The notes beneath the pieces are model-generated. The model saw only the letters and a list, made by a program, of their open reading frames with translations, did not search any database and was not told where the DNA came from. A stretch of DNA of 64,000 bases from Rhizophagus irregularis. Taxonomy: Eukaryota > Glomeromycota > Glomeromycetes > Glomerales > Glomeraceae. The DNA is taken from assembly GCF_026210795.1 (NCBI RefSeq), contig NC_089438.1:2563501-2627500 (forward strand), written 5' to 3'. Numbering within the stretch: the first letter of the stretch is position 1; every line of letters begins with the position of its first letter. The position numbers were made by a program, and so were the translations under genes. Positions 5,327-58,015 of the stretch are shown piece by piece.

Positions 5327-5348
5327 AATGTTTTCAATGTCCGACTCC

Positions 5349-5478: not shown

Positions 5479-5500
5479 AATGTTTTCAATGTCAGATTCC

Positions 5501-6683
5501 ATTTTGTAAACGCTCATTAAATGATACCGAAAAAAATTTCAGATAAGCAGACGCAAATAAATTTTTTGTAAATTGTAATACTTCTTAATTTGCCTTGGGT
5601 GTTCATACATCATGTATCACGTGACTTTATTAAAAGTTATATAAAAAAATTTTTAATAAATATAATTTCAAAAGGAGCATGCAATATGTGTATTTTTGTC
5701 TGTTCTATAGTTTACTTAAAGCGTCAAAGCTGATTTCGAATGTCAATTTTGATTTATTTTTTTTTCTCGTTTTTTTTTCGTTAAATTTAATTCTGCCCAA
5801 CATTAAATGATCAGCATAGAAAATTTACTTTTTTGGAAACCCGTGTTGAACACCTACTTTTTTTATCCTATCCTATAAAAATTTTTATTCGAATATTTCC
5901 ATTATTTCTCCGTGACTTCCGTGAAAATTTACACGGAAAAAACATGGAACGATAAAACAAGGATCAAATTTTTTACAGGATATACACAAATACAATTTTA
6001 GATTTATTAAATAATACTAGAAATTTGTACATAGTATTGCAACATATAAACTTGTAATTTCGCAAGTCAAAAATCTCAACGTTTGCAAAGATCCTAACTC
6101 AGGAACTTAAATATAGCAAAAGATTATTGCTGAAAAATTTTATTTATTAATCTGAAAACAAAATAGAGTGTACTATTACGGACTTAGAATCATCAATTTA
6201 TTAATCAATATCCAAAATCACGAGATTACAAGCATTAGAAAATAACAGCCCTATAATGTGGGCTGGCACTATTGGGCTGGCCAGAATTAATATCATTACA
6301 CCGACACAATATCCTTATTTAGAAATTTCATAATTCTTGCCGAAGCTATGAATTTGGCCAACATTATTGCCGATCAGTATCTTTCGGGTAGATGTAACAA
6401 ATTTTTTTTTTAAAAAAACTGTTTAATAATAATAAAATAATTTTTATCAAATTGTTAATTGCAAATTTCTTTAAATTCAGCTTAAATGAGTTTCTTTTTG
6501 TATTAGCAGTTATATTTCTTTTTCATAAATTTTTTAAGACCACTTTTTAGACCACTTTTTATATGTCAATTTTTTTTTTAACGTAATACCAAATAACTTT
6601 ATTTAATTAAGAGATAGATTTTACAATTTTTTTATGATTATATATATTACTCTAACTACTATCTATATAGAATTTGCTATTTA
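5501..6683. other. Intergenic, 3' flank of the F-box gene
   Basis: No coding sequence recognised. The last 200 bp are also present, apparently unchanged, at 1-202, as part of the contig-end duplication. Confidence 0.5.
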
Positions 6684-21513: not shown

Positions 21514-23308
21514 CTAGCTGGATGCCCACGTCTCACACGGGCCTGGCTAATTAAAATTATGAAAATCAGATACCTTTCTGCTAAGCTGTTATATAAAGTC
21601 TAGAATGGTTATTAGCATTAATTTAGAATTTTGTGGTAAATAGGGAATTATAGGCTGTGTATGGCAAGTGATTTTACAGCGCTCACAATCCTTGCAAAAT
21701 ATTTTAAAAATTATTACATATTAATAGGAATATTAATCATTACAAAGTATAACAGATAATGAGTGTCAGTATAAATAATATGCAATACATTTTTTATTAT
21801 AATAGTTATTATAATAGTCATAGTGGTTCATTAGGAAGCCGAGCAAACCTAAAAAACATCCAAAGAATCATTAGACCTAAAAAAAGGTACCAAAATTTAA
21901 AAAAAGAAAAGAAAAAATGATTAGTAATTATGAAAAAGAATTTTTTAAAAAAAATTAAAAATATAATTCAAACTAACCTTCACTCTGAAAAGTACCACCA
22001 AAACCTAAAAAAGAGAAAAGGAGTGTTCCCTACAAAAAAAAAGTTAAATTAGTGATATTTTTTAAAGTTTAAAATTCATTTTCAGAACTTACCCAAAGTT
22101 CTCAAAAATTGATCATCTACTAAAAAAAAGAAAAGAATGAATCATCAATAATGTTTCGTTAAAGAAATAATGTTAGGAAAATATTATTTACCAAAATTTA
22201 CATCTGTCCAAGGTGTTGCAGTAGTACTGTTTAAACTACAAAATATAGAACACAAAATGTTAGTTTTAATGTTTCATTTCATTAAGAAATAAAAAAAAAT
22301 TAATGAAAAACACTTACAAATTCCATGTCTGGAAAGAGCCAAAGAACCACCCTACAGAATGCAAAAATAAACATTAGTAAACATTTTGTTAACTAACATT
22401 ATGTTAAAAGAAGCATTTTAAAAGAACCTACTAAAATTTCACACGTCCAGAATCATGAATAAACCATATAAAAAAGGAAGAAACATGATGTTAGTAAATG
22501 TTTTGTTAAAAAATTTTTCAAAGAAAAAATACTCACCACAATTCTATTCGTGTATAAATTATTCCTTATTCAGTTATCTAAAAAAATGAAAAATCAAACT
22601 GTTAGAAATGGTTGATTAAAAGAAATGTATTAAATCCTTTCTTACCAAATTTCCACGCGTCTGAAGATAAACCAAGAAAACCACTGATACCTAAAAAAAG
22701 AAAGCTTTATTTTTTTTGGTTTTTTTTTGGTTTTTTGCATAGTTATTAAATACCTGTAATTGCTGTTATTAGAAATGTTCAATCCCCCTAGTAAAATCCT
22801 ACTTTGAGAGCTGTGCAGGCATTAGAAATTAAAAATTAAATGTAAAAGAAAAGGTGTATTTTTTTTTAAAAGAAAGGGATTTTTTTTTAAAAGAAAGGGA
22901 TTTTTTTTCGTCATATGGGAAAATTCAGAAACTGAAAAATATTTTTTTTTAAAAAAAAAAAAAGAAAATGTGTCGTATGGAAAAATCCAAAAAACTTTTT
23001 TTTAAAAAAAAACAATGACGATTGCTCAATAAATTTTTTATATTTTATATTACAATTAGTACTAATTGGATTAGTTGCTATAATTTGTTTTTACGCCAAT
23101 CATTTATGCAGCCTAATTCAAAATTGTATTGGGATTAGAGCTGCTAATCAATGTCAAATGATGCGCCACTCCGAATCCCTATATAAAAATCTGTAGCATA
23201 GGGCGCAGACACATGATGATGGATGATCCAATTTAAATCCACCTTTTTATGCAGGGTAGTCAGTCTTAACGTCACGGTCGCACAATGCTTTTTTTTTATA
23301 GATAGAGA
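21514..23308 (-). mobile_element. Non-autonomous Helitron, 1,795 bp
   Basis: On the minus strand the element starts TCTCTATCTATAAAAA at 23308, a typical Helitron 5' end, and finishes with a GC-rich hairpin region (AGGCCCGTGTGAGACGTGGG) followed by ATCCAGCTAG at 21514. The neighbouring host bases are A (23309) and T (21513), as expected for insertion between A and T without target duplication. There is no Rep or helicase. The interior carries a micro-exon-like array on the same strand (22720-21840), as if a spliced gene segment had been captured. Confidence 0.75.
21840..22720 (-). repeat. Micro-exon-like array inside the Helitron
   Basis: On the minus strand, 25-50-nt blocks are each preceded by a T-rich tract ending in TAG and followed by GTAAG, GTAAA or GTGAG. 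Examples are the block ending GACGCGTGGAAATTTG before GTAAG (about 22646) and one ending ACACGAATAGAATTGTG before GTGAG. Intervening sequences contain TACTAAC or CTAAC branch-like motifs. The organisation matches the arrays at 34250-39330 and 55570-57560. Whether it is transcribed or spliced is unknown. Confidence 0.5.
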
Positions 23309-27761: not shown

Positions 27762-30155
27762 TAAACATGGCATAGCAGCCTTTATCTTTATTAATTATTT
27801 ATCAAACTTTACAAAATTACATAAAAGAAAAAAGAAAAATAAAATAAAAACTAACTAAAAACAAAGCTATATAGTCTCCTAGAAAGAAATTAAAATTAAA
27901 AGAAAATTCAAAAGAAAAATCACTAATACTAACACTTCCTAGATCTCCCCCCTTGATATATTCCAATCAAAGTAGAAGCAACTATGCTAACATAAGGCCA
28001 CGCAAATTCAATTTTTCGGTTCACGTAACATTGAAATTTAAAATTGACCTGGGGACCCGGAGTTTATTGTTTATTAATAAAAAAAGTTTATATATAAAAT
28101 CGTGACATTTGATTGGTTGACTTTTAAAGGGGAAAGATTTTATTTTCGCTCCAGAAGTTCTCAGCCACGTGATAAACTTGCCTGCCAATAAAATTACGTA
28201 TTGATCACGTGATAAACTTTTTATATATAAACTTTTTTTTATTGAAATTTGAAAAAGTGACCCGGCCGGGTGATGTGAACTAAAAAATCGAATTTGTGTG
28301 GCCTAATAACGAATGACGCGCCCACTATTAAAATCAACACTCCATCCTGCAAAAGCGGTTATTAAGTAGCACCGTTAGACGACCCATAAAACCCGAAATG
28401 TGATCAAACCAAGATAATCCATATTGCATCGAGTTTTTTAACCAATCGGTTCTGGAGTCACATGAATCAACATGGGTCGGAGGAGGTAAAGATGAGTAAG
28501 GTATATAAGAAGATTTAGACAAACCTTTAGGCCTTGGAGATTGTTTAAGTGTTGAAGTAATGTTCATCGCATGTTCCCATAATCCTTTATCATACGAACG
28601 CGGATTCCAAATTCGTTTACGGAATTTGTTAACAAAATTGTTATGTATAGCAGTAACTACATTCATGGCAGTGAGGCGAGGAATACCTAAGGTATCAAAA
28701 ACTTCCAGAAAGGTGGTAGGCAAACAGCCACGGACCAGACTATAGGACGACCAGTTACTAGATGAGAAAGACCAACAAGGAAGGGAAGTAATTCTATCCA
28801 CTAAAGGAAAATAGTCACAATTGGCATTATCACCCGCTTCTTTGATTTTATGGGTAAGGTGGTGAAGATAAGATGTTAAAAGTTGGTGTAATCTAACACA
28901 ACGCTTGTTGCATAAAAATAAATGCATAAAATCTTCTAAATGGTCTTCACAAGAACGACAAGTTAGAATTTCCACATATAAATCTGGTCGTGTCCTTTTC
29001 AGTAATTCCAAAGTGGGTAAGTCTTCCAGAAAAAGTTGAAATTTTAGCGTGTAATGTTTGGAGACATTTTCCTTAGTGAAAGAGTTATCAAATTTAGGTT
29101 GAAACATTAATGTGTGCCAAGTAAGAGCCCAGTCAATCATATAACGAGAAGGATCTGTTAAGAGAAAAACAAAACGGAAACGAGAAAGAGCTAAAAGGTC
29201 TTTCATATACAACATTTGATGATATTGTTTAAACAGATGTCTTGGATTGGATTCACAGGTTACGTCATCATAGATCATAATATAATCATGAACAGCTGCG
29301 AGATCGAGACGGGAGATGAGAACCGCATCGTCAGATGTATGGGCAGTATTGGCAAGAGAATCAGCAAAATCGTTCCAGTAAAAATTAGAGTGAGCTTTAA
29401 CTTTGAAAGGCAAAACCGAGAGTTGTTTATCCACAATCAGTTGTTGGATGATGGCTCAAAGTTCAAAATTGGTAGTCTTATAATAAAGACGAGAATCTGA
29501 ATAGTCAGATAAGAAACAATGTTTCAAACCCTCAATGGAAGACTGTGAGTCTATGTAAATATGAATAACAGAGTTGGCAGGAGAGGCTGATAAGGCAGCA
29601 TAAATAGCAGCAGCTTCGGCACGAGAAGAGGAAGGCCAGTCACGAATGATACCCCGCTTATAAGTGGCAATAGAATTAAGAAAGCCAGAGTCTTTGACAA
29701 TTTGAACCCAGCCCCATCCCATAGAAACATCACAAGTTCCTAGATTGATAAGAGAGCCATCAGTGTAAAAGGAGTAATGCGAATCTGAAGAGAGTACGAC
29801 CGATGAAGATGCAGCAACATCACCAGCTGTAAGTAAACGTGAAGTAGATAAAGCATTGTCGGCATTGTTGAAAGAAATATTAGGAATATCAACATCTAAA
29901 ACTGAACGAGTTGAAGGATTACAGTTTGAGGTGACAAAATCCATAATTTCTGCCCATGACACTGTAGCAGTCAAGCTGGATGTGTGACTCATAATGGATG
30001 ATTTCTTCATAGGTAAAATCCATGATTGACTAAGAGAGGCCGAATAGGAGCAGGGCACAGAGCTAGTGGCAACAAATTTCTTTGGATACAAAGATTTGTT
30101 TATATTCAAATTACAGCCGGGACAAGGTCGTAGAGTGATCAAGTCGCTCGGACAA
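27762..30155 (-). mobile_element. 5'-truncated LINE fragment
   Basis: Flanked by a perfect 15-bp repeat AAGTCACACTTTCGG (27747-27761 and 30156-30170), read as its target-site duplication. It carries the RNase H and C-terminal part of a LINE polyprotein on the minus strand but no reverse transcriptase, so it is truncated. The 3' part (27762-28333) is non-coding. Confidence 0.65.
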
Positions 30156-30202
30156 AAGTCACACTTTCGGCAGATTGGCCCATTTTTCAGGGGCTCAAAA
30201 AA
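28334..30202 (-). pseudogene. LINE-type RNase H and C-terminal region
   Basis: One continuous frame of about 620 codons broken only by a TGA at 29456-29458 after TTNFEL. RNase H catalytic residues are visible: Asp in FYTDGS, Glu in SSRAEAAAIYAAL, Asp in IYIDSQS, and the late His/Asp motif KAHSNFYWNDFADSLAN. A zinc-ribbon-like segment precedes it (KCDFCP ... CPGC). After RNase H come about 330 residues with a CRSCEDHLEDFMHLFLC motif, resembling the Cys/His zinc motif near LINE ORF2 C-termini. No reverse transcriptase domain is present. It is not a host gene. Confidence 0.8.
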
Positions 30203-31946
30203 TCATTTTTTGTAAATATCTCAGCATCCAGTGGTCCAATTTTGATGAACTTTTTTTTAAATTGTAGAGCTAATGAGGGCTACAAAATAAAAAAAAGTTC
30301 ATTAAAATTGAATTACTGGATGCTGAGATATTTACAAAAACCGATTTTTTGAGTTTCAGCAAAAAGGGGTGTTTTTGGCCAAAAGTCCATTATGACCTTT
30401 ATATTAGATATCCGGGGTCCTATCTACAGATTTTTCAACAGAAATCCATAATGAAGATTTTTACTACACTCACCTAATGGCTGGATTTATAAAAACACCA
30501 AATACAACACTTCCACTTGCATTTGATAATCCAGATCTTGAACCATTAATTTTTCCAGATTTATTTCCTGATGGTCAAGGACACTTTTATAGTCAAAATG
30601 CAGATGCTTTAGAGGATAATACAATAAAAACAGAAACATATGGAAAATATATAAAACACTGCCTATTATGTGTTGATCCACGCTTTCATCTGCATCCTTA
30701 TTGGCCTCACTATTCGTATTTAAGATTAGAAAAGTTACGAAATCATCAGAATACAATGTGACTCTGGCGTCAAAAACAATCAGATACAATATACTGTCCA
30801 CCAACAGCTTCAGAACTTATTACACGTAGTATATATACAGGAAAATGCATGATTAATGAAAGTAACACTACTACATTACCATCATTTATACGAACAGGAG
30901 ATACATATATACTTTAATGAAAAACTTTTACATATTAATGCTATGATAAGAGAATTTAGATTACCTCCTCTTTTTATTACATTAACTGCAGCAGAATCAA
31001 AATGGATACATTTAAAAGATATATTAAAATCAACAGATAATGGAAATGAAATACCAACAAATAGGCCATTACATACATCTCTTCATTTTACTCATCGCAA
31101 AAGAGAGCTTTGGAATCATGTTTGGAGAAAACCTGCAAATAGCAATTGGGAAATCTCATTCATTTTTTTGAATGTATTGAATTTCAAAATAGAGGAGCAC
31201 CACATACACATACAATACTTTGGATTGAAAAAACAATAGATGAAATGATTAGTGAAAATATAGTTAGATCTACCCTTTCTAATCCAGAACTTGAACCTGA
31301 ACTTTACCAATTAGTGGTGAATCATCAAATTCATACATGTAATCCTAGAAAATGTGGTGGTCCTGTACCTTCTGGCCAAACATGTAAAAAGAATTTTTCT
31401 CGTCCATACTCATTAATTACTTATTATAATGCTGATGAATTTAGATATGTTTACCAGTGTATAACTGAACAAGACAGATGGGTAGTTCCTTATCATGCAC
31501 CACCACTTTTAATATGGAATGCCCATATGAATGCTCAATATGTAAGTACTAAAGGACTTGGTAATTATCTATCTAAATATATTGTAAAATCAGAACCTTC
31601 GCATGTATTTAATATATTAGAAGGAGATAAATATCGTGAACATGTTGTTGCTAGACGTCTTAGTTCAATGGAATGCATGTTTTTATTACTTGGTGAACCA
31701 ATATGCAATTCATCAGTACAAGTAAAATACTTACCTACTGAACCACCAACTACACATTCACGTGCAATAAGACCATTATCAACAATTTCAGATGATGATG
31801 ATGATCCATACTGGAAAGATGCAGTTGAAAAATATTTTGCACGTCCATGTGCTCAACAATTTAACAATATAACTTATCCTAATTACTTCAAAAATTACAA
31901 TTTATTAACAAAAAGACCATCCAATATAATAATAATGAAGTGTATA

Positions 31947-32908
31947 CAGTCAACTCCCTCTATAGTCACTCCCGTTATAGTCACATTCTACTATATAGTC
32001 ACACCAGTTGAATGTTCAAAACACTTTATTATTAAAATCTATCCTATATAGTCACAATCTATCTATAGTCACTATCACACCTATCCTCAAAAATCTTATA
32101 TTAAAAAGAACCGTTTATAATCACAGTTATATAAAGAATATATTAAATAACTTGGCATCTAATAATCGTACAAAGATGTACCATAGCTTGTTAGAATCGT
32201 CTCACTGAGACGAATCGAATGGTGGTAGTTTTATCCTTTTATGATCACTGGCTGATGAGTTATTCAACAAAATGTTAAGCATCGGCATTATTATAATTCC
32301 TTAATTTACGTTTACTGCGCCATTTAACATTTTGCTAAATATCTCGGTACCTAGTGATTGTAAAAAGACGATTAATAGCTCGTTGGAATCGCCTCATCAA
32401 GACGAATCGAATAGTGGTAAGCTTATCTCTCTATGATCAATATTGACGGAGTTACTACTTAAAAACTATTTAATATTTTTTAATTTCGGAAATTGATCTA
32501 GTGATTGGATTTCGATGTATTTTATACCATTAGATTCGTCGCATCAAGACGAATCGAATGGTAGTAAGATCGTCTCTCTAGGATCAATATTGGCAGAGTT
32601 ATTACACAAAAACCATTAATATTTTTTTAATTTCGGAAATTAATCTAGTGATTGGATTTCGATGTATTTTATACCATTAGAACCGTCTCATTAAGACGAA
32701 TCGAATGGCGGTAAGATCATCTCTCTACGATTAATATTGGGGGAGTTACGATACAATAAAGTTTTAAGTATAATTTTGGCCAAAATTATGTTAATTTTTG
32801 GCTGGAATTATGATATACTAATATAAGAAATTTTTTATATAGTCACATCTCTTTATAATCACCAAATATGGACTGTCCCAAATGTGTGACTATAAAGAGA
32901 GTTGACTG
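31947..32908. mobile_element. Pogo/Tigger-like element, 962 bp, no ORF
   Basis: Ends CAGTCAACTCCCTCTATAG and the inverse, flanked by TA (31945-31946, 32909-32910), inside the Rep-helicase remnant. The interior is built from about four imperfect direct repeats of roughly 145 bp containing AGACGAATCGAATGG. The terminal motif is shared with the 189-bp element at 12974-13162. Confidence 0.8.
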
Positions 32909-33815
32909 TATAAATAACCTTAATTATTATGTTGTTAAAAGAACATCTCCATTAGTTGTACGATACAGATATCTTAAAGTCCAAAATGGAGAATTATTTT
33001 TTTACTAGCAACTATTACTTTCTATATCTTGCAGATCTGAAGAAGAATTACTTGGTAATTATACATCTTATAGAGAAAGATATCTAAGTCTTCATTCAGA
33101 TTTTCAAAGTAGCATTCAAAATTCTACAATTGTAACAGCAGAAGAACATAGGCATTCATTGCAAAACCAATTTAATACAATTGTAACTAATATATTAGAA
33201 GATCTTGCAAATCATATTACACCTCAAATAGCTGACATTCTTACAAAACAATTGGATGCTTTAAAATTAATTTCCCCAGTATTTTCACAATCTGCAATAC
33301 TTAATTTACCAGAAGAACAATGTATTGTTTATAATGCAATAACATCTAATCTTGGATTATTACAATCTAAAAAATACCCATTCTTTTTTATAACAGGCTC
33401 TGGAGGTACTGGAAAATCTTACATAATAAGATTAATTATTGACTGGATAAAATCTGAAAATAGAACTTACCTTTTAACAGCTCCAACAGGTGTTGCAGCA
33501 CAAAATGTTAGTGGAATTACAATTCATTCTGCTCTTAGAATAATACAATCAGGGTCAGGTTATCAATCACTAGCTCTTTATGATTTAGAATTTAAAAAAA
33601 AATTGCAAAGCATCCAAATATTAATCATAGAAGAAGTATCCATAGTATCATCATTTCTTTTTAACTTTATATCTAATTTATTTGCAAGAATTCATAATTC
33701 TGATATTGCATTTGGAGGTATTAGTGTGATAGCTGTTGGTGATTTAGCACAACTCCCGCCAGTAAGAGGTGAGGCTGTATTTTATTCATCAATATGGCAA
33801 TTATTTTACTTTTAT

Positions 33816-34249
33816 TTTTACGTAAATCTCAAAACCAACCACTGGTCGAAATCATTTATTTTGTCAATAAGACCTTTCAGCAACAATTCGGCAAATCGAT
33901 CACATGATTCGTCACACATTCAGCTAATTACAAAAATCAGAAAAAATTTGGCATAAATCAACTGGTCGATTTTAGGTCGATTTTTGGTTGAGTTGTAACA
34001 TAAAAAAATCCATAAATTGACCAATATTTTTTTTTATTGATTTTTATTAACAACAAACAATCAACTTAAAAACTTTTTTGACGATTTTTAAACGATTTTT
34101 TAATTAATTAATATCAATAATGGCAAAAGTTTAGCAGATCAGTGACATATAATGTACTAAGCCGCAGCCACAGTAATTAGTTGATCTATTACCGAATTTA
34201 GACTATTAATAATAGTTTAAACTATTTCGAAAAAAAAATCTTTTTTTCT
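33816..34249. other. Breakpoint region after truncated helicase
   Basis: Similarity to copy B stops near 33815. The following sequence has short repeats (AACTGGTCGATTTTAGGTCG) but no gene. The rest of the helicase is not found downstream on this strand. Confidence 0.5.
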
Positions 34250-35764
34250 CGAAATGGTTTTTTTGTTTAATCGGCTCTGGCATGGATACCGATATTCCAG
34301 GTAAAGTTTCGAAAAAAAATTCTGAAACTTTCTTTAATAAAACATTTTTAATACTAAAAAATGTTTTTTTTTTAATATTTTTTATATAGGAAATCGGTTC
34401 CGGCGTGGATACTGATATTCCAGGTAAAGTTTCGAAAAATTTTCGAAACTATTTTAAAAAAAAAACGTTTTTTACTAAAAAACGCCTTTTTTAAAATATT
34501 TTTTGTTTGGGGAATTGATTCTGGCGTGGATACCATTTCCCAGGTGAAGTTTCGAAAAATTTTCGAAACTATCTTAAAAAAAAATCGTTTTTTACTAAAA
34601 AACGTCTTTTTATAATATTTTTTGTTTAGGGAATTAGTTCCGGCATGGATACCGTTTCCCTAGGTAAAGTTTCAAAAAGTTTTGAAACTTTCTTAAAAAT
34701 AAACATTTTATAACTAAAAAACATTTTTTTAAATATTTTTTGTTTAGGGAATTGGTTCCGGCGTGGATACCATTTCCCTAGGTAAAGTTTCGAAAAATTT
34801 TGAAACTTACTTAAAAAAAACGTTTTAACGTAAAAAAACGTTTTTTTTTTGTTTTTTTTGCAGAAAATCGGTTCCAGCATGGATACTGTTTCCTAGGTAA
34901 AGTTTCGAAACTAAGTTTCGAAACTTCTTTAATAAAACATTTTTAATAAAAAAAATGTTTTTTTTATCATTTTTATTTAGGAATTCGGCTTCAACGTGAA
35001 CGCCGATATTCCAGGTAAGTTTCGAAATGTTTCGAAACTTCTTTAATAATAAAAAATGTTTTTTATTTTTTGTTTTTTTATATAGGAATTCAGCGACGTC
35101 GATATTCCAGGTAAGTTTCGAAACAAAATGTTTTGAAACTTTAAAAACGTTTTTTAATAAAAAAAAACGTTTTTTTTTTTAATATTTTTTATAGGAATTC
35201 GGTTCCAGCGTGGATACCGAATCCCAAGATAAGTTTCGAGATTTTCAAAACTTTAATAAAAAAAATGTTAATTTCTAACGTTTTTTTTTATATTATTGTA
35301 GGGATATCGGTTCCGACGTGAATACCGAATCCCAAAGGTAAGTTTCGAAGAATCTCTTCGAAACTATCTTTTTTTTAAAGAACAATTTACTAATCGTTTC
35401 TTTTTTTTTGTAGGTACGGAAAAAACTAAGATTCGTAAGTATATACGAATCTTGGTTTTGTTTTTTTTTTATTTTAATATTACAAACGGTTACTAATAAC
35501 CGTTCCTCTCTTTTTTTTTATAGGTCGGGTGGATTTCTGACGAATAGATGAATCAAGATTCGTAAGTACAAATACGAATCTTGGTTTTTTATTTTTATTA
35601 TATCTTTTTTGATTTTTTTTTCTTCTATTTTGTAGGTTTCGGCTTTCAGTTCTTGGGCTTTGGATATACAGGTGAGTTTCAAAGCGAAGGAATCGAAACT
35701 CTTTAAAATAAATTATTTTTTTTAAATTTTTTTTTATTTTTTTCTTTTATTTTGTAGGTTTTGG
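34250..35764 (+). repeat. Micro-exon/intron array, block 1
   Basis: At least ten tandem units of about 90-130 bp. Each has a 25-36-nt conserved block (for example 34390-34423 and 34630-34663, GGTTCCGGCGTGGATACC core) preceded by a T-rich tract and TAG and followed by GTAAG or GTAAAG. The intervening part begins with a hairpin (GTTTCGAAA ... TTTCGAAAC) and contains a second hairpin whose loop is ACTAA or CTAA, like a branch site. Some splice sites are mutated (GG at about 34509, ATAAGT at about 35245). One reading of the blocks is GSGVDTDIP, but 33-34-nt lengths do not keep one frame. It lies on the strand of Helitron copy A. Confidence 0.6.
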
Positions 35765-36814
35765 TGTAAACGGTCGAATATCAAGCATGAAAATATGATA
35801 AAATTCAACCACCAAATGTAATTGCCAAATATCAAGAACGAACAAATTAATTATGAATTGGCGTAGATGGATAAATAATTAGCCGAAAAGGATAAACATT
35901 TAGGAAGAGTAATGATCTACATGATGTAATATTTATTGAATGATTGACAAAGAACCAATAGAATAATTAGAGTCGATCAATTGCGGCTTAGCAATCTTTA
36001 ACAATAAGAACAATTAGAAAGAATAATTATAAGCCACAAAAGATAGATTATAAGTAAAACACATAAAGTGAATTAAAAGAACATATAAAATAATGTCAGA
36101 AAGATTAAAGAATATAAAATAACATAAAAGATAATATAAAAAGATAATACAAAGATATTATAAAAGATAATATATATATATAAAGATAGTGTATTTAAAA
36201 TATAGATAGTATATTAGAAAGATAGTTCGAAGATAATATGTAAAAAGAACATAAAAGATAGTATATAGATAGAATAAAAAGTAGCGTAAAATTTGTATAA
36301 ATAGAGAATGGAATTCAAAGTAATTCCATAGTTCTCATCTACAGAACTCAATAAAATATAAGTTTCATTTAATTATTTGTTAGTAAAGTTTAATGTTAAT
36401 TAAAGGTAATAGGTTCGCCCTAAACTTTAATTAATGTTTGCTTAATTAATTTTAATTGAATAAAATGGAAATTTCAAGATGAATTAAATATATATTCCAT
36501 AAAGTAATAATTCGTAGCGGGAGCTATCGAAGTTTGAAATTAAAGGTAAAAGTGGATATAATTTGGGGAAAATTTAGAGAAGTTAATTTTATTTTATATC
36601 GTTTGATGTTTTATATTATAACGCTATTATGTTATAAACTAAGAATATTGTTGTATGTTGTTCGTTAATTATGTTGTTTGTTAATTATGCAGTTGATTAT
36701 TTGCTTGTTCGTTTAATTGTTCGTTTGTTCGATTATTAGTTCGTTCGACCATGAGAATGCCTATTCGATGTGGCAACTCTGTAAATTGATGACAGAGAGA
36801 ATTGGGGGATCTCA
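35765..36814 (+). mobile_element. Candidate solo LTR, 1,050 bp
   Basis: Interrupts one unit of the micro-exon array. It begins TGTAAACGG and ends GGATCTCA (TG...CA), and has a TATA box (TATAAATAG at 36296-36304) followed about 55 bp downstream by AATAAA (36350), the U3-R layout of an LTR. Flanking bases (TTTGG and TCGGC) do not give a perfect target duplication. No internal retroelement genes. Confidence 0.5.
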
Positions 36815-37163
36815 TCGGCTTTCGGTTTTTTATTCGTTGGATATATGGGTAAGTTTCGAAGTAAAACTTCGAGAAAAATTATTTTAATTTTTTTTCTTCC
36901 ATTTTGTAGGTTCGGCCTTCGGTTCTTGGGTGTTGAATATACGGGTGAGTTTCGGAGTAAAATCTTCGAAACTTTTTTTAAAAAAAATTATTTTTTTTAA
37001 TTTTTTTTAAAAATTTTTTTTCTTCTATTTTGTAGATTCGGCCTTTGGTTCTTGGGCATTGGATATGGGTAAGTTTCGAAGTAAAACTTCAAAACTTATT
37101 CTAAAAGAAATATTTTTTTTTAACTTAATTTTTTTTTTGTAAATTTCTTTCGGTTTTTGGGCG

Positions 37164-38624
37164 TAGAGCTCCGCACGGGTAAGGGTCAATTCGGGTGACC
37201 CGTCAGGTTAACCCGAAATATTCAGGTCAGGTTGTCAAATTCGTGACCCGGTATCAGGTCGGGTTACAGGTTTGACCTGACCCGATTGACCTGTTAACCC
37301 GAATACTTTAGTTTAAAAAAATGTTTAATACTCTGAAACGGCATTTTTTCATGTTACCTTATGAAAAAAATGCCGTTTTGGCATTGTTTTTTATAAACAA
37401 ATACGCCGAAATGGCGTTTTTCATTTTATTTTATGGAAAAATGCCATTTCGGCATTTTTTTCACTTCTTTTATGAAAAAAATCGCCAAAATGGCATTGTT
37501 TCATATTATTTTATGGAAAAATGCCGTTTCAGCATTTTTTTTTACTTCTTTTATGAAAAAAAATCGCCAAAACGGCGTTTTTTCATATTATTTTATGGAA
37601 AAATGCCGTTTTGGCATTTTTTTTCACTTCTTTTATGAAAAAAATCGCCAAAGCGGCTTTTTTCATATTATTTTATGGAAAAATGCCGAAACGGCATTTT
37701 TTCCCACTTCTTTTATGAAAAAAATCGCCAAAACGGCGTTTTTTCATATTATTTAATGGAAAAATGCTGAAACAGCATTTTTTTCCACTTCTTTTATGAA
37801 AAAAATCGCCAAAGCAGCGTTTTTTCATATTATTTAATGGAAAAATGCCAAAATGGCATTTTTTCCCACTTCTTTTATGAAAAAAATTGCCAAAACGGCG
37901 TTTTTTTATATTATTTAATGGAAAAATGCCGAAACGGCATTTTTTCCCACTTCTTTTATGAAAAAAATTGCCAAAACGGCGTTTTTTCATATTATTTAAT
38001 GGAAAAATGCCGAAACGGCATTTTTTCTACTTCTTTTATGAAAAAAATCGCCAAAGCAGCGTTTTTTCATATTATTTAATGGAAAAATGCCGAAACAGCA
38101 TTTTTTTCCACTTCTTTTATGAAAAAAATCGCCAAAGCGGCATTTTTCCATATTATTTAATGGAAAAATGCTGAAACAGCATTTTTTTCACTTCTTTTAT
38201 GAAAACATCGCCAAAGCGGCATTTTTTCATTTATCTTATGAAAAAATGCCGTTTTGGCATTTTTTTTCACTTCTTTTATGAAAAAAATCGCCAAAACGGC
38301 GTTTTTTCATATTATTTTATGTAAAAATGCCAAAACGGCATTTTTTTTTCACTTTTTTTATGAAAAAAATTGCCAAAGCGGCGTTTTTTCATATTATTTA
38401 ATGGAAAAATGCCGAAACGGCATTTTTTCCCACTTCTTTTATGAAAAAAATCGCCAAAACGGCATTTTTTCATATTATTTTATAGAAAAATGACCTGAAT
38501 ACTTTCAGGTCAGACGGGTCAGGTCGGGTCAGAGCAGGTTACCCAACCTGACCCGACCTGATAAAAATTTTTCAGTTCAGGTCAGACAAATTACCCGACC
38601 CGACCCGACCCGTGCGGAGCTCTA
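37164..38624. mobile_element. hAT-like element filled with palindromic repeats
   Basis: TIRs TAGAGCTCCGCACGGGT and ACCCGTGCGGAGCTCTA, flanked by 8-bp repeats TTTGGGCG and CTTGGGCG (one mismatch), interrupting an array unit. The subterminal regions are rich in repeated CAGGTCAGG/GACCCGACC motifs. No transposase. Confidence 0.75.
37330..38490. repeat. 81-bp tandem array, two palindromes per unit
   Basis: About 14 copies of a unit with TGCCGAAACGGCA and CGCCAAAACGGCG hairpin cores joined by CACTTCTTTTATGAAAAAAA and CATATTATTTAATGGAAAA. It stays open in several frames (peptides such as FFYEKNRQNGVF), which are artefacts of the repeat. Confidence 0.85.
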
Positions 38625-39329
38625 CTTGGGCGTTTGGATATTTAGGTGAGTTTCGAAGTGAAAGAATCGAAACTTTTTAAAAAGAATAATAATTTTACTT
38701 TTTATTTTGTAGGTTTCAGCTTTCGGTTCTTGGGCTTTGGATGTACGGGTGAGTTTCGAAGTAAAAACTTCGCAACTTTTTTTTTAAAAGAATTATTTTT
38801 TAAAAATTTTTTTTATTTTTTTTGTAGGTTTCGGCCTTTGGTTCTTAGGTATTGGATATACGGATGAGTTTCAAAGCTTTGTTTCTTTTCGAAACTTTAA
38901 AAAAAAAAATTTTAATTTTATTTATTTATTTTTTTACTTTGTAGGTGTCGGTTGTGATATCCTTGGACTTTAGATGGGTGAGTTTTAAAATTTCACTTTC
39001 TTTTCAAAACTTTTTTAATAAAAAACTAATCATTTCTTTCTTTTTTTTTGTAGGTTTCCACTTCGAACTTATATTGAATGGATCGGGTAAGTTTCATATT
39101 TTGAAGCATATTTTTTTTTTTATCGAAGAAACTTTAACTAATTGTTTCTTCTTTTTTTTGTAGGTTTCCACTTCGGATTTTTGGTTGGGTAAGTTTCGAA
39201 ATATATTTCGAAACTTAATTTTTTTTATTGAAATAATAATGGTTTACTAACCGTTTCTTTATTTTTTTTTTGTAGGTTTCTCTTTCAGATTTTTGTCAGA
39301 TTGCTGAGTAAGTTGTTGGATGGTGAATA

Positions 39330-39510
39330 ATGGGTAGTAGACGAGATGTGAACGATGGTTGATGGTGGTTGACGATGATTGACAATGAATGGTGGATGAT
39401 GGGTAGTAGACGAGATGTGGACGATGGTTGATGGTGGTTGACAATGGATGGTGAATGGTGAATGGTGAATGGTGAATGGTAGATGGTGAATAGTGGATGG
39501 TAGGTGTAAA
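39330..39510. repeat. GATGGTTGA-type minisatellite
   Basis: Two copies of a roughly 70-bp unit (GGGTAGTAGACGAGATGTG ... GATGGTTGATGGTGGTTGAC), then short GTGAATG(A)TG repeats. Non-coding. Confidence 0.7.
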
Positions 39511-40383
39511 TAGACAGATACTATAGATATTAGTTATTTAATATGATAATTTTTAATGTGTAATTTTATTAATAAAGCAAAATAATAAAATATAATTAAT
39601 TGATTGTTATTATAAAATTAAAAATAAGCTAAATACATAAAAATCATTAACAATTAGACAAAATTAGACTTAATTTCGTCTAACATTTGGCAATTTGAAA
39701 TTTGAATGAATGTTTAGTAAAAGGTTGACGAATAGTTTATTTCCAATTTTTTAATGAATTTTTGCCGATTTGTGATTGCCAAGTGGCAGGCGAACTGTGC
39801 AAATCGTCCATAATAATTTTGACGATTTTTTTGGCAATGATTGGGCAGATTGGCCAAAATTAGATCAACTTTCGTCCAACATTCATCAATTTGAAATTTG
39901 GACGAAATGGACTATTCTGACCAGTGTTTTATTAATTTTAGTCACGCGTGATGATTGTAGGGTAAGGAGAAACTTACCTACGTATCGTAGAAGAAGATAA
40001 TTATTTTTATTTTTTTATTATTTATTAAGTGAGTAGCTAGGCCCAGTCTGTACCAAATATCGGCTGGAGACTCACGTTTTTTTTGGGCTGTGACTGATAC
40101 TAACATTCACACTGTACAGCCTGGTACTATTTTATAAAATAGTAGCAAACAAGTAAATGTGTATTTTTTTATTAGGTTATAATAAAAATTAGAATTTACT
40201 TTAATTTTTAACATAAAAATTGTAAATAATAAAAAATTCATAAATAAAAATAAATTTGCTTTCCCAAACTTAAAAAAAAGGTGTTTATATAAAAGAAAAG
40301 GTGTTTATATTATTTTTGATTATTCAATAGTATCACATGCCCCTTGTATACGTTCTACTGCATACTCAGCTTTGACGATCAAA
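39511..40383. other. No gene seen
   Basis: AT-rich, with two loosely related segments (around 39660-39720 and 39855-39910) sharing GAAATTTG and TCGTC(T/C)AACATT motifs, probably old element fragments. The 74-codon frame at 39776-40000 has no recognised features. Confidence 0.4.
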
Positions 40384-42277: not shown

Positions 42278-45200
42278 TTATGAAATTGGTAATGGTTGTG
42301 ATGCTATTTGTTTTAAACGGGAGTATTCTTTAACTACATTTGGATCTACTATAAATGAATCTTTACTTAAGTTCATTATTTGAATATTATCCCATTTAGG
42401 GCATCTACTGAGTGCAGTATATGCTTGACCAGGTGCAAACAATTGGCTAAGATCTAGTGAAATGAGAGGTAAGGTTAGACTTTGTGTTTTGTGCACTGTT
42501 AGAGAAAAAGAATTTTGTAATGGAAACTGTGTCCTTGAAGCATGTTGGCCAGTTGAATAAAAATATGCTGTTTCTCTAGTGATCCATTTTTGAATTATAG
42601 CACCTTGAATACAAAAAGCTACCTGAACACTTGGTTGTTGTTTATTGATGTCTGTAATTACACCAATTGTTCCATTACATATTCCATGATTTATTAATGA
42701 GTTGTTCAAATACATAATTCGTGCACCTTGTTGAAGTCTGACTGTAGGTGGCATATTAGTCTTTAATTTAAATTGTGATTGAACATGTTCAGAAGGCACA
42801 CGTTTTCCTTCTAAAAAATCTATAGATTCTGCTATTAGAAATTTGTCACCATTAATTGGAAGTAAGTTACATATTGTATTATTAATTTGTTTTGATGTTT
42901 CACAATATCCAACTATATTTGTTGTTGTTAATAGTGAATCTAAAGATTGATTATTATTGTAATTTGCTGCTTTTTCCACAAGTTTTGCCCAAGTAGCATC
43001 TGATATTGTACCAAATCTAATTTCCTCTAACATTTGGTAAAATTCTCTATCTTCTTGTTGTCTTTGAGATTTATATAAAAATAAAGGATAAAATAGTTGC
43101 CATACTGATAAATAAAATACAGCTTCTCCTCTTACTGGAGGAAGTTGTGCTAAGTCACCAACAACAATTACACAGATACCTCCAAATGCAATGTCAGAAT
43201 TGTGAATTCTGGAAAATAAATTTGAGATAAAGTCAAATAGTACTGCAGATACCATTGATATTTCTTCTATAATTAATATTTGAATTGATTGTAATTTTTT
43301 TTTAAATTCTAAATCATAGAAAGCCAATGATTGGTATCCTGATCCTGATTGTGTTAATCTAAGAGCAGAATGGATAGTTTGTCCACCAACATTTTGTGCA
43401 GCAACACCTGTTGGTACTATTAGAAGATAAGTTTTATTTTGAGAATTTAGCCAATCAATAATTAATTTTGTTATATATGTTTTTCCAGTACCACCAGAGC
43501 CTGTGATAAAGAAGAATGGATACTTTTTAGATTGTAGTGATCCAAGGTTAGATACTATTGTATTATATAAAATGTATTGTTCTTCTGGTAAGTAAAGCAT
43601 TGCATTTTGTGGAAATATTGGTGAAGTTAGTTTTAAAGCATCCAATTGTTTGGCAAGAATATCAGCTATTTGTGGGGTAATATTATTTGCAAGATCTTCT
43701 ATTATGTGAGTTATAATTGTATTGAATTGATTTTGTAATGAGTACCTATTTTCATTTTCTGTAGTATCTGTAATATTTTGAATAGAATTTTGGAAATTTG
43801 GATGTAAACTCAAATATTTTTTTCGATATGATGTATAATTACCAAGTAGTTCACTTTCAGATCTGCAAGTGGTTGTAAGTAATAATTGTTGATAAAAAAA
43901 TGACTCTCCATTCTGAATTTTAAGATGTCTATAGCGTACAACTAATGGAAATGTTCTTTTAGTAACATAATAATTAAAATCATCTTTGTAGTATATTTTG
44001 TTACTTGATGGTCTTTTAGTTGATAAAGTGTAATTTTTAAAGTAATTAGGATAAGTTATATTGTCAAATTGCTCATCATGTGGACGTGCAAAATATTTTT
44101 CAATTGCATCTTTCCAATATGGGTCTTCATCATCATCTGATATTGTTGATATTGGTCTTATAGCACGTGAGCGAGTAGTTGGTGGGTCAGTAGGTAAATA
44201 TTTTACTTGTACTGATGAGTTGCATATTGTTTCACCAAGTAATAAAAACATACATTCTATTGAACTAAGACGTCTAGCAACAATATGCTCACGATATTTA
44301 TCCCCTTCTGATATGTTAAATACATATGTAGGTTCTGATTTTACTACATATTTAGTCAAATATTTTCCTAAATTTTTACTACTTACATATTGAATATTCA
44401 TGTGGGCATTCCATATTAGAAGTGTAGCTGGATGGTATGGAACTACCCATCTATCTTTTTCAGTTATACATCGATATATATATCTTTGTTCATTAGTGTT
44501 ATAGTAAGTAGTTGATGAATATGGTTGGGGAAATTTTTTTTGCATACTTGACCATGAGGTGCAGGGCCACCACATTTTCCAGGACGGCATGTATGGATTT
44601 GATGAGTTATTACTAATTGGTAAAGTTCTGGTTCAAGGTTTTGATCTGGTAAATCAGCTCTGATAAGATTTTCTTCTATCATTTCAATTATACTTTTTTC
44701 AACCCAAAGTATTGTATGTGTATGTGAAGCTCCTCTATTTTGAAATTCAACACGTTCAAAAAAATGATTAAGGTATCCCCAGTTACTATTTTCTGGTTTT
44801 TTCCAAACATGATTCCAAAGTTCTTTCTTTCGATGAGTAAAATGATGAGTTGTATGTAATGGCCTATTAGTTGGATTTGTATCTCTATTATCTGTTGATT
44901 TTAATATGTCCTTTAAGTGAGTCCATTTAGTTTCTGCTGCAGTTAAAGTAATAAAAAGGGATGGTAAATTGTATTCTCTCATCATAGCATTTATATGTAA
45001 TAATTTTTCATTAAAATATGTTTCTCCTGTTCGTATAAATGATGGTAATGTAATGGTTTTTGTTTCATCAACTATACGGTTTCCTGAATATACACTATGT
45101 GTAATAAGTTCTGAAGCTGTTGGTGGACGAAATATTTTATCTGATTGTTTTTGACGCCAAAGAAGTGTTGTATTTTGGTGATTTCGTAATTTTTCTAATC

Positions 45201-46392
45201 TTAAGTATGAATAATGTGGCCAATAGGGATGTAAACGAAAGCGTGAATCAACACATAATAATCGATATTTTATATATTTGCCATATGTTTCAACTTTTAT
45301 TGAATTATCTTCGGAACTATTAATAGTTTGATCAAAAAAATGTCCATTTCCATCAGGAAATAGATCTGGAAATATGAGTGGTTCAAGATCTGGATTATTA
45401 AAAGAAAGTGGAAGTGTTGTAGTTTGAGTTTGCACGAAACCAGCCATTAGATAAGTGTAATGAAAATCTTCATTGTGAACTTCAGTTGGAAAATCAGCAG
45501 ATGATAAAACAATATCACCTTCTTGAAAAGGTGGAGCATTTGTATCTGAAGATAAATGTGTTGCTGTAGGGAATGGATCTTGATAAGTTTCTGTAAGAAG
45601 TGATGATGTAGAAAGTAATCTGGAAAATGGCTTTAAATATTTGTTATGTTGCTTAAGCCAATGTGCAGCAGTACATAATTCTGGAGTAAGCCATGATAAG
45701 TTTTCATTGTTATTTTGACTTTCAGGATTAGATAAAAATGCCCCTAATATATCAGAATATAATTTTAATACGCGCATATTTTTTGAGAATTCCATATCTC
45801 CTACTAGCGTGCGATATTCAGTATACCTATTCGCATCTAAATTTCTACCTAGTGAACAATGTAGAAATACTGGAGATAAAAACTTTCTTTGTGTAATTGG
45901 TATGGCTTTAATTACATCTGGTATAGGATGGAGCTTTGGGCATGGATATCATTTTTGATTGTTTTTACAACTTTCACATACACATACAGTGCGTATTGAA
46001 CCATCATCTTTTATATAGATATCAATGTTTTGAAAGTTTATTTCAAGAGGATAGGTGTAGTTTTCATCATATGGAAACCATTTAGCCTTGGTAGGATATA
46101 ATAATTTTCCACAAAATGCACAAGGTAAGCACGTGTATTGAGAAAGAATTGTAGTTTGAAATTGAGTGTGAAGTTTACTTAGACGTGTAGAAGGTTGCCA
46201 AATAGGTAATGGAGCAACATCTAAGTTTAATGGATTTTGAATAATTTCTGAGGGTTGTGAATCAGAATTAATGTTATTTGTTAAATTTGATTGAGAACTG
46301 GTAGCAATATGTGTATTAAGTGAAGAATAAAGATCAGATGAATTATAAGATTGAAATCTATAAGTTTTACTTTTAAATCTGTGTTGAGACAT
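42278..46392 (-). pseudogene. Helitron Rep-helicase, nearly intact copy B
   Basis: About 1,371 codons collinear over the whole RepHel protein. Visible parts: N-terminal zinc motif (CLPCAFC ... CVCESC, about residues 95-145), HUH nuclease (FQNRGASHTHTILW, about 550), two-tyrosine motif (KYLTKYVVK, about 675), then a PIF1-type SF1B helicase with Walker A GSGGTGKT (about 964), IIEEISM, GDLAQLPP (about 1076), VHKTQSLTL and YTALSR (about 1326). Only two lesions are seen: TGA at 45949-45951 (copy A has CGA) and a 1-nt frameshift near 44540 in a run of C. Either could be a recent mutation or sequencing error. The stop lies only 200 bp from the element's 3' end. Confidence 0.92.
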
Positions 46393-54960: not shown

Positions 54961-55569
54961 AACAAATAATTTTAAAAACACCTTTTTGTAGATCACGATT
55001 AAATCTCAATATTCAAATATTTTTGATTATTAATTAATAACTGAAACAATGAATTTCAGATAATATACCAAATGAAAATTCAGCTGATCTGCAGATCATG
55101 ATCGAAAAAACAACAATTGAACCATGAACCTATTGAACTTTGGCTCTTCAGACAATAATATAATTCATATCAATTGGAATTTTTGCATTAATGTCGCACA
55201 AAATTACCAAATTAAGCGATAAATAATTTTTAAGCTAGCGATGTTCTGCAGGTTCCATTTTCTGCGCAGATCTTTGACCTGGCGCAGTAATTCAGAAAAA
55301 AACATTTTCAAAGTGTAAAATTTCTGCGAAAATTTTATATATTAAAATATTAAATCTGCAATGGCTAATATAAACTTTACATTATTTTAATGATAACTAA
55401 CATCAACTATTTTATTTATTAAAAGCATTTACAACATTTACAAATAAATGGTACGAAAATCAATTAACTACACTATTTATTAAATACACTATTATTCAAA
55501 ACTTCTAAAACTTCTATTTACTGCAAAATTATATGATGTTGTTAATGGTTTGGACATTGCTCCAGTTGG
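54961..55569. other. Degenerate repeat flank, no gene
   Basis: Fading copies of the satellite near 55080-55230, then AT-rich sequence. No gene seen. Confidence 0.4.
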
Positions 55570-57560
55570 TTCGATTCCAACAAACAACTGACAAAATAGA
55601 TGCTTTCAAAATCCTTCTAAATGAGAACCAAAATCCAAATGGAAAAAATAAACGAACGTTAGTAAAATGATCGTTAAAATAAAGTAAAAAAAGAAAATTT
55701 CGAAGTATTATTACCTTTGAAATTCTTTTAAGTAGGAACCGGGACCTAAAAAATGAAAGAAAATGAACATTAGTAAAACGTTCGTTGAAAAAAAGTGAAA
55801 AAAAAAGAAAAATTTCGTACCCGTGAATCTACGAAAAGAAGAAAATCAAAACATTAATCAACATTTCTCTAAAAAAATATAGAAAAAAATTTCAAAGATA
55901 ACTACTTTCGAAATTTTCCAAGAAGCATCCAGCCGCAGACCTATAGAAAGAAGAATATCGAAATGTTAGCAAATGTTTCGTCAAAAGAAAAAAATACAAT
56001 AAAACTTCAAAAAATACCTTCGAAGTTCCGTCCAGAAGCCATCCAGGAATCCATAGATCTACAAAAGAATAAAACGAAATGTTAGTCGACGTTTCGTTTA
56101 ATAAATAAAAACAAAATATAAAATATAAAAGAATTTCAAAGATTTACCTTCGAATTTTTACAGGAAGTGTCCAAACCTAATAAAAAGAAGAGAACGAAAC
56201 GTTAATCAACGTTTCATTAAAAAAAAAAAATTGAAGAATTTCGAAGGATACTTTCAAAGTTCCTTTCAGGAGCTATCCAGGAACGCGTATGAAAAGAAGA
56301 GAAACAAATGCTTCATTAAAAAAAGAAAAAGAGGAAAAAATTGAAATATTAATAAAATGTTTTGATAAAACAAAAAATTTTAAAAAAAAAAATTCCAAAG
56401 ATTCTTATCAAAAATCTACGTGTCAAAGGTTAATAAAATGTTTCAATAAAGGAAAAAATTTTTTTCCTTCCGAAATTTTACGCATGGCCTCATATTTTCT
56501 TTCCAGAGTATTTCTAACCGCTCTTTTCTGTAAAGTTTCTTCTAAAATAATTCTAGTAGTTAGAGAGTATGTCTAGTCTAAAAAATTGAACCTTTGTCAA
56601 TATTCTACGCGTCCAATGATCCAGCCCCTAAGAAAAAAGATAAATATTTTCACTTTACCCACTTTACCAAAATCCACATCCATAGATATTTGAAGAAGCC
56701 ATCTTAAAAAAAGAAAAATAAAAGAAATATACTAAAAAAAGCTTGATCGATCTCTCACTAAAATCCCTCGTCCAGATAATTGTCGAGTTCTGAGTTTCAA
56801 CTTAAAATCCCGCTCTGACACTTGTCTAAAAAAAAAGAATGAATGAAGCGTTAGATTCGTTAAAAAAATAAATTTGAAAGAACCCCACCGAGTTTTCCAT
56901 ATATCCAAACACCTTGGTTCTCCGAAAGTTCTTCAAGTTCGGCTTTTGACTTGATGAAACCGGAAATTCTCCCCTTTCTTATCTAAAAAAATTAAAAGAA
57001 CAAAGGATAACTTCAAATTCTATCTAAGAATTTAACAGGAAACCGTGAACCTACAAAAAGAAAGAAAATCGAAACATTAGTAAACGTTTCATTAAAAAAA
57101 CCATTTTTTACAATTTTTTCGAAGTTTTTTTTACCTTCAAAATTGAAGACTAGAATGGTTTCCAGTACCTACAAAAAAGAGTACTTCATTTGATCAAGAA
57201 ATTTTTTTGCATTTTTACTACAAACCGTTTCGTTAAATAAACGAAAAAAAATAAAAAAATAAATTTCTAAGTCTTTTTTACCTTCGAAAATAAAAATCCA
57301 GAGCTGTGCTTCAGCGTCCAGGATTTAAAAACGAACGTCAGTAACGTTCATTAAAAAAAAATTTTTTTTTTTTTCGAAGTTTACTAACTTTGAAATGAAG
57401 GCCAGAACTTGTACCTTCAGCGTTCTGGACCTACAAAATATAAAAATGAACGTTAGTAAAGAAAAAATGAAGTTTAATTTCAAAATGGTAGTAGAGAAGA
57501 CTGGAAACTTACAAAAATAATAAAAACGAAATATTAATTAACGTAACGTTTCGTTAAAAA
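55570..57560 (-). repeat. Micro-exon/intron array inside the Helitron
   Basis: On the minus strand, T-rich tracts ending TAG alternate with 25-45-nt blocks and GTAA donors, for example TTTTTTAG|GTCCCGGTTCCTACTT ... TTTCAAAG|GTAATAATAC around 55770-55735. Introns repeatedly contain a stem with TTTACTAA in its loop, flanked by GAAACG and TGTTTC or ACGTTCG. The layout and branch-site hairpins match the plus-strand array at 34250-39330 and the array in the small Helitron. No continuous reading frame was established. Confidence 0.55.
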
Positions 57561-57719
57561 TGAAAAATTTGGTTTTCGAAATTGTTGGAGTAAAATATGA
57601 AAAAAATATTTTTTTTTTATTCCGATATGCTGTTGCAGATTATCAAAGTATAATCCGTAGATCATGATCGAAAAAAATTTTTTTTTTTTTTTTCCTATAT
57701 AAATGACCACTATTCGTAT

Positions 57720-57840
57720 GATATTAAAGCAATATCAACTCAATATCAATATCAATATCAATATCAATATCAATATCAATATCAACTCAATATCAACTCA
57801 ATATCAACTCAATATCAATATCAATATATATATATAATAT
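57720..57840. repeat. (ATATCA)n microsatellite
   Basis: Tandem AATATC/AACTCA repeats, then an (AT)n run. Confidence 0.9.
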
Positions 57841-58015
57841 ATAATATAAAATGCTCCCAGTACTTGGCGCAAAAAAACTAACCAAATTAGTAAATTTCTC
57901 CTTCCTTTTTAGGATAACATGGTTAGCATAACAACCAATCATAAAAAATATCACTACTAAAATGAAGATCACCTGATAATGCCAACTATATAGCGTATTC
58001 TGTATTTGGTGTTAA

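Follow-up and report, generated by a model that had tools for sequence, protein, structure and literature searches.

CACTA, or CMC-EnSpm, transposons have CACT- termini, duplicate 3 bp of their target, carry internal or subterminal repeats and capture gene fragments, and their autonomous elements and deletion derivatives are usually related through common ends. According to the main text of a transposon survey of Rhizophagus irregularis, CMC and Plavaka families are present in this fungus; arrays such as those described below go unmentioned there, and the terms "palindrom-", "intron" and "tandem" do not occur (PMC11075540). Introns can also multiply: part of the published account of the Hypoxylaceae describes introner-like elements, or internally symmetrical stwintrons, with inverted-repeat symmetry and an A/T-rich palindrome, 5'-WTTCTAGAAA, the symmetry decaying in older copies and being reported as unnecessary for splicing (PMC8469720). 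Here we analyze a 64,000-nucleotide stretch of R. irregularis DNA (the window; NC_089438.1, G000:C10:2563501-2627500), in which a sequence-only reading had picked out, at 34250-39330, an array of short exon-like and intron-like blocks with hairpins at the splice signals. Judged by its ends and those of its relatives, the array makes up the inside of a non-autonomous R. irregularis DNA transposon of CACTA type, and this transposon setting is new information. As the sequence-only reading had supposed, no account of such arrays turned up in the titles and abstract openings of the open-access literature.

The genome searched was a 146,748,485-base assembly of 32 contigs; because the searches score the best candidates alone, all genome counts are lower bounds. 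Loci fetched from it are cited by L numbers. The element and its parts in the window are as follows.

33840-39926, plus strand: array-bearing element assigned to the non-autonomous CACTA type, 6087 bp including later insertions
34301-35413, plus strand: class I units, with exon blocks of 25-36 nt, intron-like segments of 71-89 nt and GTTTCGAAA donor dyads
35414-35635, plus strand: class III units, with a donor hairpin across the exon/intron boundary (AAGATTCG/TAAGTATATA/CGAATCTT) and the branch hairpin AACGGTTACTAATAACCGTT
35636-35757, plus strand: class IV unit, with exon GTTTCGGCTTTCAGTTCTTGGGCTTTGGATATACAG
36780-37163, plus strand: class IV units, resumed
37164-38624, no strand: nested terminal inverted repeat (TIR) element with ends TAGAGCTCCGCAC...GTGCGGAGCTCTA, sitting in an exon block
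38625-39310, plus strand: class IV and then class II units, class II being GTAAGTTTCGAAA..., with an ACTAAC branch inside a hairpin and TTTTTTTGTAG
39311-39926, plus strand: tail, with a GATGGTGA-type repeat, AATAAA-like sites and the right subterminal region common to sister elements

The claimed alternation of blocks, with hairpins at the splice signals, was borne out. Segmentation of the window sequence gave units at 34301-35757 and 36849-39275 in which intron-like segments of 67-91 nt alternate with exon-like blocks of 21-38 nt; these units carry GTTTCGAAA/TTTCGAAAC donor hairpins and ACTAA-type branch hairpins, followed by T-rich acceptors. The array proved to contain four unit types (I, II, III and IV), not one. 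Exon examples are GGAATCGGTTCCGGCGTGGATACCGAATCCC for class I and TTCGGCTTTCGGTTCTTGGGCTTTGGATATACGG for class IV; class II forms the right end of the array and has canonical ACTAAC-type branch sites. Some class I units have lost their donor or acceptor (GATAAG at 35228; TTTGG at about 34510). Array units are thus present as described, but 34250-39330 is not a single array: it is broken by the nested TIR element and, at 35760-36780, by roughly 1 kb of different sequence, which has no array units and splits those of class IV. A known RNA family was considered and rejected, Rfam 15 giving no match at the gathering score in the window and six loci; a tRNA scan of the window found none.

To express the hairpins as a density, Watson-Crick stems of at least 8 bp were counted per kb. 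The window array has 4.45, far more than expected by chance (0.14 when shuffled), four sister arrays (L007, L009, L029 and L031) have 5.7-9.9, the class V array L041 has 7.5 and L005 has 2.6, as against none in four chaperonin gene loci and 0.33-0.41 over three further stretches of the window. The separation is weaker when G-T pairs are allowed, each of 14 chaperonin loci having 0-3 stems per strand versus 5-22 per strand in L007, L009, L031 and L033.

The transposon assignment comes from the ends. The outer ends of the array element are CACTGGTCG...CGACCAGTG, and its terminal inverted repeats start with CACT (CACTGGTCGAAAT...ATTCCGACCAGTG), as in CACTA / CMC-EnSpm elements. In the window the left end is CACTGGTCGA at 33840, with a variant subterminal region 94% identical to L029:237-370; the right end lies at G000:C10:2603404-2603426, the final 460 bp being 86.5% identical to L031. 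The end CACT[AG]GTCG[AG] or its complement was found in 8 of the first 14 loci (L001, L006-L009, L011, L012 and L014), and none was seen within the fetched sequence of L002-L005, which were not extended outward. With up to two mismatches, the left end occurs at no fewer than 139 genome places (71+68) and the right end at no fewer than 103 (57+46); reversed controls gave 0. Identical 3-bp flanks surround 9 of the 13 elements compared: L007 and L033 (cta/cta), L012 and L035 (aaa/aaa), L029 (ata/ata), L030 (ttt/ttt), L031 (tat/tat), L032 (tct/tct) and L034 (ctt/ctt), three of the nine being homopolymers (aaa or ttt). Matching flanks are absent at L009, L011, L014 and the window copy. L029-L033, the elements initially retrieved by end sequence regardless of arrays, contained array units in all five cases, interrupted in L030 by other sequence.

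A 7.8-kb copy with the same ends, L035, encodes a tnp2 transposase (PF02992, E 9.7e-10) and has no array and no GT-donor dyad. It matches five array elements over 268-272 bp on the left (92-94%; for L009, 106 bp at 95%) and over 138-159 bp on the right (91-99%), and beyond the ends it matches one 45-bp piece of L031. Because L035 and the array elements have their ends in common and differ in their interiors, they would be related as an autonomous CACTA element and its deletion derivatives are.

L029 also contains, at 4686-7400 (minus strand), a FAR1-MULE-CCHC transposase, in convergent orientation to the array, within the same outer TIRs, and probably nested. A MULE was considered as the autonomous partner and rejected: relatives of this transposase (at least 80% identity) lie at four other places, one of them (C11:2933947) in contact with a left end. 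Of 557 candidates, 106 were scored, and not one of these falls within the other listed paired-end elements of about 8 kb; we therefore read the L029 MULE as nested. L030 has other open reading frames (ORFs), none with a Pfam family above the cut-off. In the window, Helitron-like ORFs flank the array element (28337-33953 and 42281-45948), with Helitron_like_N on the right side and PIF1 on both; the PIF1 ORF at 33009-33953 extends into the element's left end.

A genome search for the donor hairpin, as had been proposed, was productive. The strict dyad pattern has at least 138/141 matches, with 0 in the reversed control, and the 100 places listed are mostly clustered. The loose class I/II/IV pattern has at least 1796 matches forward and 1781 in reverse (reversed control 29/29), the pattern being nearly symmetric, so that many sites are counted twice. 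It has no match in 14 chaperonin (TCP1) loci (44,526 bases including overlaps), nor in L034 or L035. The gaps between exon matches in five chaperonin loci yielded a GT-AG pair to our script in 10 of 23 cases. Donor dyads as a general property of this genome's introns are therefore unsupported, one gene family being a small sample. The suggestion that an intron-exon cassette has multiplied is upheld by these arrays dispersed inside transposons. The accompanying label "introner-like" is not upheld, because the mobile part is the TIR element as a whole, not the single intron unit. That single units insert into genes as new introns is scarcely probable. Symmetric introns and fungal introner-like elements are known, as part of one report describes (PMC8469720), and the units here are intron-like; yet mobility belongs to the TIR element, the chaperonin genes lack the loose donor pattern, and no single unit turned up as a host-gene intron, though no systematic search was made.

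Splicing of the units is plausible from their signals. At L032:751-1930, a GTAAGT donor is found in 10 of 11 units and a CTAA[CT] branch in all 11, before TTTGTAG, and the exons and loops differ between units. GT donor, branch motif and AG acceptor thus stand in the order of a spliceosomal intron, the acceptor being given rather than tested because units were cut at TTTGTAG. Eight of the 11 donor arms are still GTTTCGA, and the array is called young for its low CpG decay. Such order bears on whether these are AT-rich tandem repeats, decayed at CpG and without meaning, whose likeness to introns is accidental. Across the loci as a whole, 66 of 259 donor dyads were scored as lacking GT, mis-parsed ones included, as chance resemblance would allow; however, donor, branch, T-tract and AG are ordered in several classes, and L032 keeps its donors and branches despite the differing exons and loops, so that we consider this explanation very unlikely. 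A search of the genome for one spliced class I junction, as a spliced retrocopy would contain, gave a single chance match with three mismatches in unrelated sequence.

The exon blocks appear to be mostly non-coding. Their lengths modulo 3 (51/42/30 of 123 blocks) imply that no general protein is encoded, and they rule out a coding micro-exon gene as a general explanation, with a 36-nt sub-lineage (L006, L008 and L014) as the exception. L008, on the minus strand, is a near-uniform array of units of about 128 bp with mostly 36-nt exon blocks, and in-frame splicing would give a 12-residue repeat. Of its 16 consecutive exon blocks, 12 are 36 nt long, and there is one stop per frame versus a shuffle mean minimum of 8.1. 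Micro-exon effector genes exist in other organisms, and a family of this type, encoding a secreted repeat protein or effector, could have been captured by transposons. The blocks near 36 nt and the L008 run would suit such a family, as would the repeats of the SP7-like effectors of this fungus, so far as part of their description shows (PMC11333574). We nevertheless regard it as highly unlikely. Exon blocks range over 33-37 nt and shorter; by-eye matching of blocks in L001 and L011, two related arrays, gives length differences of 1 or 2 nt (34 v 32, 27 v 28); a stop-free repeated 36-nt unit would not be improbable by chance; and SP7-like genes have a conserved intron ahead of the first repeat (PMC11333574).

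The sequence-only reading had taken stem changes on both sides (at the donor, and CGTTTTT/CATTTTT at the branch) as a sign of selection for structured introns. These changes are CpG transitions (CG to CA/TG). Regular expressions, with the outer AAAC or AA..TT fixed and the first fit taken, were used to find the donor and branch dyads; pairing of the outer positions is therefore built in, and the test covers CpG and inner pairs only. The units are related by descent, which makes the p values inexact. Donor pair 5 (259 dyads, 18 loci) is CG in 147, TG in 49, CA in 44 and TA in 19 (Fisher p 0.42), C.A breaks being nearly as frequent as T.G wobbles. For donor pair 6 in the same dyads the counts are GC 138, GT 50, AC 31 and AT 21 (p 0.06), and the branch CpG pairs (182 dyads) give p 0.47 and 0.10. 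Mean pairing at CpG positions is 0.824 in 188 GT units versus 0.831 in 65 without GT. We conclude that CpG decay strikes both dyad arms with no or weak association; cytosine is presumably methylated in this genome. Because both arms contain CpG, CpG transitions in a symmetric dyad often look compensatory, and the changes quoted at such pairs can arise without selection. The quoted evidence thus does not show selection for structured introns. RNAalifold, applied to 10 class I units of the window, gave nine donor pairs, with one sequence changed on both sides at one pair; covariation contributed -0.22 of -7.96 kcal/mol, and no branch stem emerged in the consensus.

The nested TIR element, with TAGAGCTCCGCACGGG ends, provides a control lacking splice signals, since it contains an 81-bp tandem repeat that is two palindromes without such signals. 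It has 11.8 Watson-Crick stems (at least 8 bp) per kb, and its flanking 8-mers (TTTGGGCG vs CTTGGGCG) are equal at 7 of 8 positions. A related copy lies at about L029:456-1549. Palindromic tandem arrays therefore exist in an unrelated element without splice signals, which favors hairpin-templated mutation over selection.

The explanation that we favor, with some reserve, is that these are transposons of the non-autonomous type, in which slippage or unequal exchange enlarges the cassette arrays and palindromes come from hairpin-templated replication or repair and then decay. The element would be transcribed from left to right, from a pyrimidine-rich leader to the AATAAA-like sites near its right end. 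The units of young copies would be removable spliceosomal introns, so that most of the element RNA would be spliced away. Slippage or unequal exchange would multiply the units; hairpin-templated replication or repair, acting in founder copies, would be the main process by which palindromes are perfected and spread, and may also promote expansion of the array. After insertion, there would be little selection on pairing.

Several observations pull the other way. The window copy has no target duplication. Transcription and splicing are inferred from sequence, and the junction search gave its chance match only. In L008, L006 and L014 most exons are 36 nt long and stops are few or absent, and a repeat peptide is possible in that sub-lineage. 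Compensated cells are somewhat above expectation in three sets, scored as compensated/wobble/broken: 36/96/71 for the donors, where 29.4 compensated are expected if the arms are independent; 18/19/26 for 59 C1 sites, with 13.7 expected; and 3/4/5 for the nested-element dyads (n=21; window and L029 copies), with 1.3 expected. Within GT-donor units, donor pair 6 is associated (odds ratio 2.2, p 0.037). Classes II, III and V have donor dyads unlike one another in sequence and register, as selection for structured splice sites would also give. Finally, non-CpG stem pairs covary above swapped-partner controls in three tests. In the first, 59 strings were hand-picked from 100 listed places, all on contig C1, and the 17 with unique inner segments of at least 9 nt have 82/88/76% Watson-Crick inner pairs versus 50/26/34% when swapped (reached by 7, 0 and 1 of 2000 shuffles). 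In the second, 45 unique dyads of the fetched loci have 62 and 58% versus 50 and 33% (33 and 0 of 2000). In the third, class III arms (21 units) pair at 10.10 of 11 positions with their own partner versus 9.36 +- 0.17 when swapped (0 of 500). The evidence on covariation in the hairpins is thus divided: CpG pairs gave no or weak association, three tests of other pairs gave an excess, and a fourth, on 17 unique long dyads of fetched loci, gave no clear one (0.53 v 0.53, 0.41 v 0.27, 0.53 v 0.35, 0.12 v 0.31). A per-position swap test of the donors found a small excess at pairs 7 (0.941 v 0.914) and 9 (0.752 v 0.695), with 0.826 v 0.796 +- 0.016 at pair 6 and no clear excess at pairs 5 and 8.

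These pairings raise the alternative of RNA-level selection in an active transposon lineage, in which hairpins at donor and branch would tune splicing, for instance to have the transposon's RNA spliced out or to conceal it from silencing, and dead copies would decay. The dyads differ both in sequence and in register, with GTTTCGAAAC right after the donor and CCAAGATTCG/TAAG..CGAATCTTGG and TATTTCGAAG/GTAAAGTTTACCTTCGAAATA across it (slash, splice site), and dyads at splice signals in different registers favor selection on splice-site structure. The class III arms, the C1 inner pairs, donor pair 6 in GT units and the intact signals of L032 point the same way. We nevertheless think it rather unlikely. 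The remaining CpG pairs have no significant association, and pairing is equal with and without GT; the fourth inner-pair test lacks a clear excess; the nested element has comparable dyads without splice signals; and compensated/wobble/broken counts are 0/8/6 for class V donors and 1/10/7 for class V branch dyads, against 0.9 and 1.5 compensated expected. The non-CpG covariation, together with donor and branch dyads in classes that differ in sequence and register, implies that founder units were palindromic. Something made or kept them so before decay, either hairpin-templated mutation, as in the explanation that we favor, or selection in active copies.

Two further arrays in the window had been called similar.

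55069-58010, minus strand: second mobile family with a comparable intron-like array at about 57560-55570; right boundary approximate
21840-22720, minus strand: intron-like array without strong hairpins, having 0 stems of at least 8 bp

The likeness was partial in both cases. The array at 55570-57560 is comparable and belongs to another mobile family, but has few long stems (1.0/kb); that at 21840-22720 has intron-like signals and no long stem. A second-family copy lies at C23:2326410-2327937 (L042) and, with window 55540-57560 as query, is 88% identical over 1-1453 and 97% over 1851-2021; at least 223 genome matches were found in all. Comparison with L042, whose flanks differ, places the limits of the element at about 55069-58010. 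A relative of this family, L041, has donor dyads across the splice site (TATTTCGAAG/GTAAAGTTTACCTTCGAAATA) and near-perfect branch dyads (ACGAACGTTAATTAACGTTCGT); the donor dyad core CGAAGGTAAA..TTTACCTTCG occurs at 36 or more genome sites (control 0), array membership having been checked for part of them.

Between the introns of L003, another such array, one that showed no element ends, a 179-nt piece matches 203 nt of a host WD40 gene, which we take to be PWP2-like. The piece, at 1773-1946 (minus strand), lacks 24 nt and is otherwise nearly identical to the native gene at C12:2024976-2025171; it looks like gene-fragment capture. In the left part of the array element L032, the exon at 640-725 resembles, by eye, an FG-repeat (nucleoporin-like) fragment, possibly a captured gene piece. 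A bolder possibility, which we hold to be distinctly doubtful, is that at least two transposon families of this fungus carry and amplify working spliceosomal intron arrays, with donor and branch point in RNA hairpins that are selected in active copies; such elements could splice themselves out, trap host exons such as the WD40 piece of L003, and serve as a nursery of introns and exons.

If the units are spliced, these DNA transposons would consist of introns for nearly their whole length. A single genome would then offer many naturally varied donor and branch hairpins, a ready mutational series relating local structure to splice-site choice, and transposon, intron array and captured host exon would be linked in one concrete path. 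If they are not spliced, they would still be a clear case of palindromic tandem arrays mimicking RNA covariation, and would caution that CpG-decayed dyads yield apparent compensatory changes.

In their CACT- termini, 3-bp duplication, ends common to a tnp2-encoding copy, internal or subterminal repeats and apparent gene-fragment capture, these elements are like non-autonomous CACTA / CMC-EnSpm derivatives; they are unlike them in that a long run of tandem intron-exon cassettes, with dyads placed at their splice signals, fills the interior. SP7-like effectors of the same fungus, and micro-exon genes, are similar in having short repeated blocks, but those are coding, the SP7-like genes with the conserved intron mentioned above (PMC11333574), and the arrays here have no general reading frame. 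Introners in diverse eukaryotes also link transposable elements to introns, and in the main text describing them the terms Rhizophagus, Glomero-, tandem, hairpin, palindrom- and CACTA do not occur (PMC9860276). There, one element makes introns in many genes (PMC9860276), whereas here each transposon holds many intron-like units. The nearest parallel, from the part of its description cited here, is that of the symmetric proliferating introns of the Hypoxylaceae (PMC8469720). Those introns stand singly in host genes without flanking duplications (PMC8469720), whereas here dozens of units stand in tandem inside a TIR element, most of the copies compared having 3-bp duplications.

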